From Planctomycetota bacterium (GTDB lineage Bacteria > Planctomycetota > Planctomycetia > Gemmatales > Gemmataceae): a DNA stretch of 64,000 nt. The stretch spans positions 1 through 64,000 of the forward strand of contig JACPPF010000091.1 of assembly GCA_016191165.1 (NCBI GenBank), read 5' to 3'. The stretch's first letter is position 1; each line of letters begins with the position of its first letter. The translations under genes and the position numbers were made by a program. The notes beneath the pieces are model-generated. The model had not been told where the DNA came from. It saw only the letters and a program-made list of their open reading frames with translations, and made no database searches. Below, piece after piece: positions 42,983 to 48,167 of the stretch.

Positions 42983-43342
42983 GGTTTTTTCCTTGCGCCA
43001 ATACAGGAAAGGACATTTTGGGGTGGGAAGGCGAGCAACAACAAGCCTTTGATGAAACACCGAGCTGTTGCCCGAGTTTCGGCCAAGCAGGCCTATTTCT
43101 TTGAGGTCCATGTTAGTTTGCGCGATTTCGGGGGAGGTTGCAACGGAAAATGAGGTTTTTTGTCTCGGGCGGCTTTCTACAAGAACTGGAATCAAGCGAT
43201 GCACGGCGTGAAGTCCCCCGTGTTGCCAGCACCACCCATCTTCCGGATGATAAGCATTTGCTCTTGAATCTTCCCGGCGGATGTGCCAAAAGCCAGACTT
43301 GACCCGGAATTCGGGCCGCTCTCGGTTTATTGGCAACGGCTT
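42983..43342. other. Divergent intergenic region, 360 bp
   Basis: This gap holds the leaders of the DUF1501 gene (minus) and the TPR gene (plus). It is richer in A/T in its left half (about 42985-43160). I found no clear pair of promoter boxes and no gene. Confidence 0.35.
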
Positions 43343-45793
43343 ATGACACCTTCGACAACTCCTATCGGCGCCAGGGTCGGGCGGGCACGCCGCGGCGTCG
43401 GGCAGCTCTGGCAGGTGCCGACGTTTCTTTTCGGCCTGCTGGCCGTCCTGGGCGTCGCCGCCAGTTCTCCCTGGCGCCAGACGCCACAGTGGCGCGAGTT
43501 TGACGGCTTGATCTCATCCCTGCGCGTCGGACTCGACAAGGGCGAACCGACCGATTCACTGGTCGGCCTGGCCGAACAAATTCACGCGCATATGGCCGCT
43601 TTCCCGGGCCGCAAGGCCGAGGCCCATTTCCTGATCGGCTCCGCCCTTTACCAGCAAGCGCGTGCGAACCCCGCTTCCACCGCGCACGACATTTGGCCTC
43701 GCGCCATGGACCATCTGGAGCAGGCTTTCACCCTCGGCGTCCGCGAACACGATCGGCCCGCCTTGCATTACCGGCTAGGGTATTGTTGGTATCAACAAAA
43801 AACGAATGTGCCGCGCGCCCTGGAGTTGATGACGCAGTCCGTTGACAAGGGAGCGCGGCAGCCGCTGGAGGGGTACCGCTTGCTGATCGAGGCGTATTTG
43901 CAACAGCAACCGGTCAACCTGGATGCGGCCCTGGCGGCATGCCGGCGCGTTCTCGATTTGACGCCCTCAAAAGACGCCGACGCTCAGGCGCGGGCTCGCT
44001 TGCAGATCAGCCAGGTCCTGTTGCGCAAGGGCCAACGCGCCGACGCGAACAAGGAACTGGCACGCATCGGCGCCAAGGCGCCCCGAGCGATTCGCCTTCA
44101 AGCTCGTCTCCTGCAAGCGCAGGCCTACGAGGAGGACAACCAATGGACCGAAGCGATCACGATCTGGCGCGGCTTGCTCGCTGACGCCCCCCACGTCGAG
44201 GGTGGACGTGTCCGCATCTGCTACGCCCTGGGCAAGTGCTTGCAACAAAAGGAACCGCCCGACAACGCCGAGACGATGCGCGTCTGGGCGGACGCGCTTC
44301 GCCTGGGCGGCCCGGCCGGGCAGGCGGCGGGTTTGCGCCTCGGACAGTTGCGTCTGGTGCTCGATGGCGCGCAGGCCGGGCAGGCGCTGGCGGACTGGAA
44401 AACCGCTCTGGCAAACGTCAAGATCCCGGCCGATTTCCGCAATCCATTCGTCAAAACCCAGGAATTGCGAGCCTGGTTCGATCACGCAATCGAACGTTTT
44501 CAGGCGGCGCAGGACCCGGAAAAGACTCAGGCCGTGGCCGAGCTTTATCGCAAGATCGCCCCAGGGGACGAGGCCGACGAGCGCATCGCGCGCGCGGCGG
44601 AATCGCTGGCTCAACAGTTGGCCGCCAAGCACAAGGCGATGCTCGACAACATCCAGGCGGAGGATGTGCAGGCCCAATATCGCCGCGCCGGCGCCGCCTG
44701 GGAACACGCGGCTCAGTCGCGCCCCGCGGCTCAGCGCGCCGATTCATTTTGGCGCGCCGCCCAGTGCTACCTGGCGGCCCGAGATTCCGCGCACGCCCAG
44801 CAAGTCCTGCAGCAATTTGTCAAGATCGAACCCAACGACCGCCGCCTCGCCGAGGGCTGGCTCGCCCTGGGCGACCTCTATCGCCACGCAGGCGATCAGG
44901 ACAGCTCCCACAAGGCGTATCACAAATGTATCGAGATTCCCAGCACCGAGTTCGCCCACCGCGCGCGCCTGCACCTGGCCATCGCCCAGAAGAAACAGAA
45001 CAACCTCGTCAAGGCTCGTGAAATCCTCGATCAAATCCTCACCAATCAAGGTCCGCAACTCGATCGGCCCACGCAGGAAAAGGCGCTCTACCAAATGACC
45101 CTGGTCCTCATGCTCATGAAAAACCACGGCGAGGCGCGCATTCACCTCAAGAACTTCGTCCAGAACTTTCCGGAAAACCCCAACGTCCTGGTGGCACGCG
45201 AACGGCTCGGCGAATGCGCCCGCCAGCTGGCCAAGTTCGAGTTCATCGAGGGGGACAAGCTGCGCTCCACCATCAAGGTCGGCATGCCGCTCGAAGTTCA
45301 GCAGGGCGTCGAGGAGCGCATTCGCGCCCATCGCTCCGCGGGCAAGGCTCTGCTCAAGGAGTCGGCAAACGATTATCAACGGTTGGTCGATGAACTGGAA
45401 ACCAAGGCCCGTAGCAAAAACTCGCTGACCGACGTCGAGGCGATGTTGCTGCGCCGCGCCTGGTTCGGGATAGGTGATTGTTATTACGATGACGAGGAGT
45501 TCACCGAATCGCTGCGTATCTTCACAAAACTTCAGGAATCCCACCGCCGCACCGTCGAGGGCCTTTTCGCAGCCACGCGCGTCTGTGGTCTGGCCACCCT
45601 GCTGCGCCAGCCGATGACGGGCCTGCGTTCGATTCGCATGTTGCAGGAAGACCTCAAGGCAATGCCGGAAAATGATGAGGTCTTCCGCACCGCGGACGTC
45701 CCCACCCGCGAAGTCTGGCAGCGCTGGTCGCAGGACACCGAACGCCGGCTGTTGACGCCGCCACGCAAGGACACCGGGCCGGTGTTTCGCTGA
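43343..45793 (+). CDS. TPR-repeat protein with one N-terminal membrane span
   Basis: An 816-residue protein. A short cytoplasmic start is followed by the membrane span VPTFLFGLLAVLGVAASS (about 23-40). The rest is helical with many TPR-like units, for example AHFLIGSALYQQARANP, YCWYQQKTNVPRALELM, ARAEILDQILTNQ-like segments and LALGDLYRHAGDQDSSHKAY. The ATG at 43343 is chosen; an upstream GTG (43283) lacks a ribosome-binding site. The extracytoplasmic TPR array suggests an assembly scaffold or partner of secreted complexes. No enzymatic motif. Confidence 0.82.
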   Translation: MTPSTTPIGARVGRARRGVGQLWQVPTFLFGLLAVLGVAASSPWRQTPQWREFDGLISSLRVGLDKGEPTDSLVGLAEQIHAHMAAFPGRKAEAHFLIGSALYQQARANPASTAHDIWPRAMDHLEQAFTLGVREHDRPALHYRLGYCWYQQKTNVPRALELMTQSVDKGARQPLEGYRLLIEAYLQQQPVNLDAALAACRRVLDLTPSKDADAQARARLQISQVLLRKGQRADANKELARIGAKAPRAIRLQARLLQAQAYEEDNQWTEAITIWRGLLADAPHVEGGRVRICYALGKCLQQKEPPDNAETMRVWADALRLGGPAGQAAGLRLGQLRLVLDGAQAGQALADWKTALANVKIPADFRNPFVKTQELRAWFDHAIERFQAAQDPEKTQAVAELYRKIAPGDEADERIARAAESLAQQLAAKHKAMLDNIQAEDVQAQYRRAGAAWEHAAQSRPAAQRADSFWRAAQCYLAARDSAHAQQVLQQFVKIEPNDRRLAEGWLALGDLYRHAGDQDSSHKAYHKCIEIPSTEFAHRARLHLAIAQKKQNNLVKAREILDQILTNQGPQLDRPTQEKALYQMTLVLMLMKNHGEARIHLKNFVQNFPENPNVLVARERLGECARQLAKFEFIEGDKLRSTIKVGMPLEVQQGVEERIRAHRSAGKALLKESANDYQRLVDELETKARSKNSLTDVEAMLLRRAWFGIGDCYYDDEEFTESLRIFTKLQESHRRTVEGLFAATRVCGLATLLRQPMTGLRSIRMLQEDLKAMPENDEVFRTADVPTREVWQRWSQDTERRLLTPPRKDTGPVFR

Positions 45794-45926
45794 GAGTGCC
45801 TGGGGTGGACGGGCAGCCAACTTTCCGTTTTTTTCCATCTTCACGTTTTTTGCAATTGCTTCGCAGTTTTGTAAAGCCGATGATGAAGAAAGTGTGAGCC
45901 CGATTGTAATGACGGGATCTTCACTT

Positions 45927-46156
45927 CGTCGCTTGCGCTTCCGGCTAACACCGCCTGCGGTTAGGCGAGCGGCAGGAAAAAATATCCCCACCAGCCCGGA
46001 GCGCACGCGACGGGTCCAGCGGACATCTGCCCCGTCGCTTGCGCTCCGGGCTGGTAAGTTAATACCGACCGCTCGCCTTAGCCGGAAGCGCAAGCGACGG
46101 ATGAATGGAATTTACAAACAATACCAGTCAATCCGCCGCTTGCGTTTCCGGCTAAC
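45927..46156. repeat. Nested inverted repeats: one palindrome inside another
   Basis: Outer arms 45927-45948 and 46078-46099 are perfect 22-bp inverted repeats (CGTCGCTTGCGCTTCCGGCT type), extended by a second 12-bp pair (45961-45972 with 46069-46080). Inside them, 45990-46014 and 46031-46055 form a separate 25-bp inverted pair (ACCAGCCCGGAGCGCACGCG type, one mismatch). A lone extra copy of the outer arm is at 46133-46156, just before the 46170 gene. Confidence 0.87.
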
Positions 46157-46169
46157 GACTCGTAATCAC

Positions 46170-46475
46170 ATGACGAAACGTCTCCCCCGATCCCTGCGTC
46201 CATTTTTCTGGGACTACGACTTCGCGCGCCTGTCCTGGAAAGCTGACCGCGATTTGATTATTGGCCGAATCCTCGCGGTTGGCACCTGGGACGCGCTGCG
46301 CTGGTTGCGGCGTCGAGTGCCGGACGCGGAATTGCGCGCCTGGCTGGAGCATCGGCGCGGGGCGGGGTTGAGCAATCGGCACCTGCGGTTCTGGGAACTC
46401 ATCCTCAAGATTCCGCGGCGTAAGGTCAATGCTTGGTTCGCCGATCCCGCGCGGCAGATTTGGGAGGGGCGATAA
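46170..46475 (+). CDS. Putative antitoxin, DUF6922-like (101 aa)
   Basis: Starts MTKRLPRSLRPFFWDYDFAR, then LIIGRILAVGTWDALRWLR and a helical basic tail ending RQIWEGR. The RPFFWDYD...LSW...LIIGRIL...GTWDALRWL pattern is that of small proteins found beside AbiEii-type nucleotidyltransferases, which I recall as DUF6922. The stop is five bases before the nucleotidyltransferase start, so the two form an operon. The longer frame upstream of 46170 only translates repeats. An antitoxin role is inferred from position. Confidence 0.72.
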   Translation: MTKRLPRSLRPFFWDYDFARLSWKADRDLIIGRILAVGTWDALRWLRRRVPDAELRAWLEHRRGAGLSNRHLRFWELILKIPRRKVNAWFADPARQIWEGR

Positions 46476-46480
46476 CGCGC

Positions 46481-47113
46481 ATGGCCTGGCATCCCGAAAT
46501 TCTGGCGCAACGGCAGCAACGTGTGCTGGCCCAAATCGGGCCAGCGCTGGCGCAACGCGGTTTCTACCTGGCCGGCGGCACTGCCGTTGCGCTGCACCTT
46601 GGACACCGCCGTTCGGTCGACCTCGATTGGTTCGCGCCTGAACTGACTGATCCCGAGCGCCTGGCCATCGACCTTCGTGAGCAGGCCATTCCCTTCGCCA
46701 CCGAAGACGTGGCTCCGGGAACTCTGCACGGCGCCGTTTGTGGCGTTCGTGTAAGTTTGTTGCGTTACCGTTACCGGATGCTTTCTGGTTTGCGCACGCT
46801 ACCCGGCGGGATTCCCATCGCAGGCCGTGCCGACCTCGCGGCCATGAAATTGTTGGCAGTCGCCCAGCGGGGCGCCAAGAAGGACTTCGTGGACATCTAC
46901 GCCCTGGGCAGACGAGCCAAGTCGTTGCGGCAAATGTTGCGGTGGTATAAGGGCAAATTCGCGGTTGAGGACGTTGCCCATCTCCTGCGCAGCTTGGCCT
47001 ATTTCGACGACGCCGACCGGGAACGACTGCCACGGATGTTGTGGGATGTGCGCTGGCGGGATATTAAAGAGACCATACAGCGCTGGGTCCGCAGGGTAGC
47101 GCAGTACGCATAA
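46481..47113 (+). CDS. AbiEii-type nucleotidyltransferase, putative toxin
   Basis: A 210-residue protein of the AbiEii/AbiGii toxin family. The nucleotidyltransferase core shows FYLAGGTAVALHLGHRRSVD and LDWF; the GGT and SxDLD pattern holds metal-binding acidic residues. The second half contains ADLAAMKLLAVAQRGAKKDF with VDIYAL, which is typical for the family. AbiEii toxins add nucleotides to tRNA ends or other targets and act in type IV-like toxin-antitoxin systems. GGGAGGGG overlapping the end of the previous gene is its ribosome-binding site. A shorter upstream GTG (46433) is rejected because it would overlap the previous gene. Confidence 0.82.
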   Translation: MAWHPEILAQRQQRVLAQIGPALAQRGFYLAGGTAVALHLGHRRSVDLDWFAPELTDPERLAIDLREQAIPFATEDVAPGTLHGAVCGVRVSLLRYRYRMLSGLRTLPGGIPIAGRADLAAMKLLAVAQRGAKKDFVDIYALGRRAKSLRQMLRWYKGKFAVEDVAHLLRSLAYFDDADRERLPRMLWDVRWRDIKETIQRWVRRVAQYA

Positions 47114-47132: not shown

Positions 47133-47498
47133 TCAAGGTTTGGCCGTCGGTTTGCGCATGCGATGCCGACCGGGTTCGACGACCACGAATGCCATTTGCA
47201 AATCTGCCTCCGGGTAAAGAGACAATACACGTTCAAGCTCGGCATGAACGGCGTCGCGAGTCGATGGCAGAATCCGTAGATAAATGACGCCCGGCGCGTT
47301 GCCCTGCACAAAGACGAGGCTGCCGAAATCGCGGTCGCGCGTCACGAGGATGCGCCCGTGTTGTTGAGCCAGTTTGAGTAGATCGACGTCGTCGGCCTGC
47401 GCCAAGCCAAGTTCGGACGCTGTCACTACGTCCTGGCCCAGCCCACGAAGGAATACCGTCGTGGCGGCCCAAACGTCTTGATCGGTGAGAAACTTCAT
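47133..47498 (-). CDS. DUF5615 family PIN-like toxin
   Basis: A 121-residue protein of the PIN-like DUF5615 family, a predicted ribonuclease toxin. The acidic positions lie in KFLTDQDVW, ASELGLAQADDVDLLKLA and ILVTRDRDFGSLVF. The gene overlaps the end of the DUF433 antitoxin gene by four bases (ATGA) and is therefore the second gene of the pair. Its stop is 19 bp from the stop of the AbiEii-like gene, so the two modules face each other tail to tail. Confidence 0.88.
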   Translation of the reverse strand: MKFLTDQDVWAATTVFLRGLGQDVVTASELGLAQADDVDLLKLAQQHGRILVTRDRDFGSLVFVQGNAPGVIYLRILPSTRDAVHAELERVLSLYPEADLQMAFVVVEPGRHRMRKPTAKP

Positions 47499-47725
47499 GG
47501 CGTTGCGGCCAGGTGAATGTCTTCAAGAGCCACGACGTCCATCGCATATTGAATGCACGCACGAATGTCGTCCGGTTCCAGGTCGGGGTAATAATCGCGG
47601 ATGATGTCGGCAAACGGCAAGTTCTCGCGAACCAGTTCCAGCACGCTCTGCACGGGAATGCGCGTGCCGGCCACGCACGGTTTGCCGAAGTGAATTTGCG
47701 GATTGACGGTGATGCGGGGGGTCAT
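47495..47725 (-). CDS. DUF433 family antitoxin
   Basis: A 76-residue protein: MTPRITVNPQIHFGKPCVAG, TRIPVQSVLELVRENL and FADIIRDYYPDLEPDDIRA. This is the usual DUF433 winged-helix antitoxin sequence (GKPCxxGTRIPV). Its stop overlaps the start of the DUF5615 toxin, giving a translationally coupled pair. The ATG at 47725 has GGAAG upstream; longer frames start in an A/T-rich stretch without homology. Antitoxins of this type normally autorepress their operon. Confidence 0.9.
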   Translation of the reverse strand: MTPRITVNPQIHFGKPCVAGTRIPVQSVLELVRENLPFADIIRDYYPDLEPDDIRACIQYAMDVVALEDIHLAATP

Positions 47726-48167
47726 GGATAATACTTCCTTTGGCGGAATCGATACAAGACAATTATCTTGGTTTACACAAGGTGTCACAAGGGGAAATTC
47801 CGATATGCCGGATCACAGGGTGGCCGTGCTCAAGACCTGGGCAACGCTCGGCGCCAAATTCATCGCGATCCGTTGGTGGGCGGCATATTGTTGTCTCACA
47901 TGGCATTCCGAAGATCCAAAGCTGTCGTGTTGCATCAGCGAAAACTTTCCCACGCGAAAATTGGCGACGGGAATACACGAGAGGTTTCGGCGAATCAACG
48001 CCAAGGCTTTGTGGGTTGACGACAGGGAGGTCGGCATTAGTTTGGAACTAAAACCCGAGGCAGGAGCTTGTTTTGAAGAGATATTGGAGGGCCTGTCGGT
48101 GCAATGGATTAAGATCTGGAAGAAAGCAGGAGGAATGAAACAGGTCCTTAAGGAATGTAGCGTATGA
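47724..48167 (+). CDS. Doubtful hypothetical gene beside the toxin-antitoxin modules
   Basis: A frame of about 147 codons opens opposite the DUF433 start and includes MPDHRVAVLKTWATLGAK, GIHERFRRINAKALWVDDR and VQWIKIWKKAGGMKQVLKEC. The last third looks like real protein; the first third does not, and composition shifts to lower G+C. An internal ATG at 47805 is a possible start. It could be a decayed gene with a frameshift, part of the small accessory island. No ribosome-binding site is convincing. Confidence 0.3.
   Translation: MDNTSFGGIDTRQLSWFTQGVTRGNSDMPDHRVAVLKTWATLGAKFIAIRWWAAYCCLTWHSEDPKLSCCISENFPTRKLATGIHERFRRINAKALWVDDREVGISLELKPEAGACFEEILEGLSVQWIKIWKKAGGMKQVLKECSV

Follow-up and report, generated by a model that had tools for sequence, protein, structure and literature searches.

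The window analysed here is a 64-kb stretch of contig C39 in the assembly of a planctomycete (G000; 7.2 Mb, 95% complete). Within it, a cluster of inverted repeats lies between the gene for a TPR-repeat protein and a block in which a DUF6922 gene is followed by an AbiEii-type toxin gene and then by a DUF433/DUF5615 pair, the latter likely a toxin-antitoxin pair. The last repeat of the cluster, a REP, ends 13 bp before the ATG of the DUF6922 gene at 46170. A mechanical open reading frame (45894-46475, forward strand) runs in frame through the REP arms and the MITE described below into this gene, giving it a false N-terminal extension with SRKRKRR and RLRFRLT peptides; the ATG at 46170 is likely to be the true start. 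No promoter was matched, and no Rfam family found, in the repeat cluster.

Synteny breaks at the cluster. In one genome (G004) the DUF6922-AbiEii genes stand beside a DUF1501 gene with other DNA upstream, while in another (G006) the TPR gene has other DNA downstream. The original prediction took the repeats to mark the edge of a toxin-antitoxin island. They do lie at this break, between the TPR gene and the DUF6922/AbiEii plus DUF433/DUF5615 block, but nothing shows that the cluster moves or bounds an island; it is possible that the repeats mark the edge or made it. The features are listed in Table 1.

Table 1. Genes and repeat features of the cluster, in window coordinates
Feature	Position	Strand	Remarks
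TPR-repeat protein gene, upstream neighbour	43283..45793	+	TPR families; homologue with different neighbours in G006
Outer-family REP, right-hand arm type (CGTCGCTTGCGCTTCCGGCTAAC), solitary	45927..45949	+	Family recurs across genome
TTA, left copy of 3-bp target duplication	45961..45963		
114-bp MITE, ISAzo13-type terminal inverted repeats (GGCGAGCGGCAGG...CCGACCGCTCGCC)	45964..46077		12 host copies
MITE left terminal inverted repeat region, 25 bp	45964..45988	+	Planctomycete consensus GGCGAGCGGCAGRNNNNNANNTACC
Inner REPIN (ACCAG...CTGGT), MITE core	45990..46055		Free copies; flanks Y1 gene at G000:C106
MITE right terminal inverted repeat region, 25 bp	46053..46077	-	
TTA, right duplication copy; also bases 2-4 of outer REP tag GTTAG	46078..46080		
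Outer-family REP, GTTAG tag split by MITE	46078..46100	-	
Third outer-family REP; tags-out REPIN together with 46078-46100	46133..46156	+	
DUF6922 gene	46170..46475	+	PF21956, 45.2 bits
AbiEii-type nucleotidyltransferase toxin gene	46481..47113	+	PF08843, 43.2 bits
DUF5615 + DUF433 gene pair	47133..47788	-	PF18480 and PF04255

Two REP families in the cluster

As had been predicted, an inner inverted pair (45990-46014 and 46031-46055; 25 bp, one mismatch) is enclosed by an outer one (45927-45948 and 46078-46099; 22 bp, perfect), and an extra arm of the outer type lies at 46133-46156, with two mismatches to a 19-mer outer-arm probe. With up to three mismatches this 19-mer occurs five times in the 64-kb window, all within the repeat cluster, compared with 0.10 expected per window in dinucleotide shuffles. 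The arms of the supposed outer palindrome are real, but they belong to two REP units that face each other with their tags inwards, rather than to the usual tags-out REPIN: a solitary REP faces a REPIN, the latter spanning 46078-46156. The usual form of the outer family in the host is the tags-out pair GTTAGCCGGAAGCGCAAGCGACGG...CCGTCGCTTGCGCTTCCGGCTAAC. An outer-arm probe with up to two mismatches matches 168 places in the genome, a count that includes the similar inner family. The 95%-complete genome yielded 11 Y1 genes, and no outer-family repeat was seen within ~1.5 kb of these.

Each REP arm folds as a short interrupted hairpin, with the tag GTTAG in the outer family and ACCAG in the inner, and the two hairpins look like sister REP families. 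Because of these tags, neither family fits the described GTAG or CGTC classes exactly (PMC3733652). CGTC-type REPs have a CGTC tag, a stem of 8-9 bp starting with A/T pairs and a loop of 4-5 nt (PMC3733652), whereas here CGTC is found at the inner, stem side of the REP, and the interrupted stem begins with C-G pairs.

The inner hairpin is the core of every host MITE of the window subfamily, and it also occurs free as ACCAG...CTGGT (~19 copies among the fetched loci). It consists of two inverted REPs, is dispersed in many copies, and is linked to a RAYT-like (Y1/HUH) gene: on contig C106 of the host, two inner REPINs with the same loop flank a 150-aa Y1 transposase ORF, one on each side (locus L030, REPINs at ~1268-1331 and ~1843-1906 around the ORF at 1375-1827). 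The gene matches PF01797 (Y1/IS200-like transposase) at 28.6 bits against a cut-off of 23, and its best NCBIfam match is the model for REP-associated tyrosine transposases, NF047646, at 30.9 bits, below the cut-off of 80. The inner element is hence a REPIN by its layout and its RAYT link and, since its tag is ACCAG, not a member of the GTAG family.

Many Y1 genes of the genus (L009-L019, L277-L306) are each flanked on both sides by their own, different palindromic repeat family, i.e. many RAYT-REPIN systems coexist in one genome. At L019 (1229-1258 and 1875-1940) the Y1-flanking repeat, GTTTAGCCGCTCGCCTTTGGCGAGCG, resembles the MITE ends, GGCGAGCGG. A tandem REPIN cluster with a run of N adjoins another Y1 gene of the host (L105, 3020-3390, contig C3) and is probably an unresolved array.

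Insertion of a REPIN-carrying MITE

The inner palindrome does lie inside the outer one, but the inserted unit is larger. It extends from 45964 to 46077, starts with GGCGAGCGG, ends with CCGCTCGCC and has TTA on either side. A search of the host genome with the cluster found 12 places sharing this larger unit. The other 11 copies (113-115 bp, 89-97% identical to the window copy) stand in unrelated surroundings, and the outer arms are absent from all of them. Exact 3-bp duplications (TTA, TAA, CTA or CAA) border 7 of the 12 copies, the remaining five being without one. With a length of 114 bp, perfect 9-bp ends that extend to ~25 bp and no transposase gene, the unit is a MITE; the inner palindrome is its core and did not jump in alone.

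The TTA at the insertion is part of GTTAG, the sequence ("tag") at the outer end of REPs of the outer family. Joined with a single TTA, the flanks read CGTCGCTTGCGCTTCCGGCTAAC-ACCGCCTGCG-GTTAGCCGGAAGCGCAAGCGACG, a 23-bp perfect inverted pair in which the GTTAG tag is intact. The TTA duplication, the restored REP and the occurrence of separate copies show the order of events, with the REP array first and the MITE second. A succession of insertions by related elements had been predicted; the succession stands, and "related" is half right, in that the two hairpins resemble sister families but the mover is a DDE-type MITE with the inner REPIN as its core. We consider the nesting to be a genuine insertion of a REPIN-carrying ISAzo13-type MITE, itself a chimera of two transposition systems, with a probability of about 85%. 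A REP array, consisting of one REP facing a REPIN, would first have lain between the TPR gene and the AbiEii-type gene pair, and the 114-bp MITE with its ISAzo13-type ends would then have entered the TTA of one REP's GTTAG tag, duplicating it. The TPR/DUF6922 junction before insertion would read CACCGCCTGCGGTTAGCCGGAAGC. No orthologous empty site was found among 59 genomes (the host and its relatives), in which the flanking genes were found only apart.

Two other accounts of the nesting were weighed. That the nest moves as a block, as a single BIME-like mosaic, is scarcely credible. REPs in alternating orientation are a known BIME layout (PMC2817692), but the nested arrangement has a single copy in the 7.2-Mb assembly, and this copy number rules out a block. 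Its inner and outer parts each occur separately, and the nested unit is not one element because the 11 other MITE copies lack outer arms and many outer REPs in the host genome, of the kind the original prediction had proposed to look for, lack the MITE; the outcome named there as refuting it, a nested unit that always occurs complete, did not arise. It is also very improbable that a RAYT inserted the REPIN alone into the outer palindrome, without a DDE-type MITE. The free REPINs and those flanking the RAYT would suit such an event, but the target duplication lies exactly at the borders of a larger repeated unit, the 114-bp MITE, the ends of which recur with other cores; a duplication at the MITE ends, and not at the REPIN ends, rules this out.

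The parentage of the inserted MITE can be read from another genome (G059, MAG RH-23may17-685), in which the same 25-bp ends border an ISAzo13-family ORF (PF07592) in a related element of autonomous type. TTA is found on the left of one copy and TAA on the right of another; contig ends divide the copies, and the one readable copy has a broken reading frame, owing perhaps to a frameshift or to an error of assembly. Target duplications of 3 bp are stated for the ISAzo13 family (PMC10045372), and the duplication of the MITE agrees with this value. The window element thus resembles an ISAzo13-family IS in its ends and its target duplication, but is 114 bp long, lacks the PF07592 transposase and is filled by a REPIN. 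No complete ISAzo13 transposase was found in the host assembly. Because that assembly holds only one 57-codon fragment, without matching ends, we infer that an ISAzo13-type transposase acted on the MITE in trans; the host MITEs may be relics, or may depend on a transposase missed by the assembly. No described ISAzo13 MITE was found in the open-licence literature.

The location of the window MITE in a REP looks incidental. A preference of the MITE for palindromic targets would explain it, and REP-targeting IS elements are known (ISPpu9, PMC8450116), while a few other MITE copies also lie in palindromes. We nevertheless regard such a preference as improbable: stems spanning the site were no more frequent at 71 joined sites than at TWA control sites (stems of at least 12 bp at 0.37 of the joined sites versus 0.46 of the controls), and a general preference for hairpin targets, tested on these joined sites, was not found. 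Like ISPpu9 in the REPs of Pseudomonas putida, the MITE is a mobile element within a REP, but ISPpu9 is a complete IS that specifically targets REPs (PMC8450116), whereas the target here is TWA.

MITE ends and cores in other planctomycetes

Public genomes were scanned with a pattern of one MITE end only, blind to the core. At least 116 stretches matched and, among the matches listed, nearly all came from planctomycete assemblies. The matches listed include 54 elements of up to 300 bp, 53 of them with both flanks, and in this set an exact 3-bp duplication borders 42 of the 53 (TTA in 23, TAA in 17) and duplications of 4-8 bp border none. When the right flanks were re-dealt in 2000 trials, the exact duplications numbered 20.6 on average and 31 at most, compared with the 42 observed; the high mean reflects how common TTA and TAA are. 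Where the two ends lay far apart in the public loci, no matching duplication was found.

The cores were analysed in a larger set of 75 elements, selected for having the duplication. They fall into 20 clusters in 20 genomes, some of which are variants of one family, giving a fair range of 15-20. Stronger folding than in 99% of same-length segments from the same loci was seen in 62 of the 75 cores, and core folding was strong by median in 16 of the 20 genomes. No shared sequence could be detected between cores of different clusters. From family to family the end-core junction shifts by a few bases, as would be expected of repeated capture. No coreless MITE skeleton was found. Two core families correspond to RAYT-flanking REPINs of the same genome. 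In a congener of the host (G002), elements with the same ends and with TAA or TTA duplications carry a different REPIN, and the core of a second MITE subfamily there (~35 elements) is 98% identical over 52 bases to a RAYT-flanking REPIN of that genome and also exists as core-only copies. A 1.76-kb pair of ends in G002 contained no recognisable transposase ORF.

Some MITEs have been interrupted in turn. At four loci of G002 (L107, L108, L109 and L120), a longer repeat splits the REPIN of MITE copies between GGGT and TGG. This repeat begins with GTGCGCCGTGCAAG, ends with CTCGACTCTAC and resembles a group II intron; it had no Rfam match. At L129 (7584 to the end, reverse strand) an element that appears to encode a transposase (MAGFATPPVGRSQLVLFPEKL...) interrupts the REPIN of a MITE, a further instance of an element in a REP. 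MAG LH-05nov19-79 (G060, labelled Candidatus Kuenenia) contains at least 40 MITE copies at 98% identity, likely the product of a recent burst of activity, as far as their similarity indicates.

Proposed origin of the chimeras

Planctomycetes may host widespread two-transposase chimeras, i.e. ISAzo13-type MITEs whose middle is a RAYT-dependent REPIN captured recurrently and independently, a tentative reading to which we give slightly less than an even chance. On several independent occasions, RAYT-driven copying would have placed REPINs in short elements derived from ISAzo13, after which a DDE transposase would have amplified the composites; capture and amplification of this kind would account for a skeleton that is shared across planctomycetes while its many palindromic cores differ. 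Two fused MITE ends would form a near-perfect 50-bp palindrome, at whose hairpin apex a transposase with single-stranded substrates could plausibly act; REPIN insertion by a RAYT at this apex is speculation. Alternatively, MITE and core could have co-evolved from one ancestral palindromic core, with the diversity of cores reflecting drift instead of repeated REPIN capture. Nearly all cores are indeed palindromes, and in a few families related genomes have similar cores, but this alternative is unlikely given the absence of detectable shared sequence between clusters and the two matches to REPINs flanking RAYTs in their own genome.

REP dimers inside longer palindromes have been described for A. 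variabilis GTAG-15, H. neapolitanus CGTC-1 and T. roseum GTAG-23, and in the first two of these species no REP-free palindromes were found (PMC3733652). The present finding accords with that remark, the systems being alike in having REP pairs centred in a longer conserved palindrome. They differ in that each of those palindromes was reported with a single REP family and without mention of transposon ends, a target duplication or a transposase, whereas here the outer palindrome consists of DDE transposon ends and the core changes between genomes. With the REPIN/RAYT system of Pseudomonas (PMC3116915), the inner family shares inverted REP pairs, outward tags and a Y1 transposase gene flanked by copies; however, its tag is ACCAG and not GTAG, and a subset of the REPINs is carried by a DDE-type MITE.

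For annotation, the analysis separates three mobile layers in what appears to be a single messy repeat. The more interesting part is the wider pattern, in which many captured hairpins share a single skeleton. The usual view is that only its own RAYT can move a REPIN. If the reading is true, a recurrent DDE-type carrier would be a second route by which REPINs spread, and it would offer a defined genomic setting for studying the sites at which RAYTs insert REPINs. Such a carrier could also account for the REP pairs inside unrelated palindromes that were noted, unexplained, in three other bacteria.
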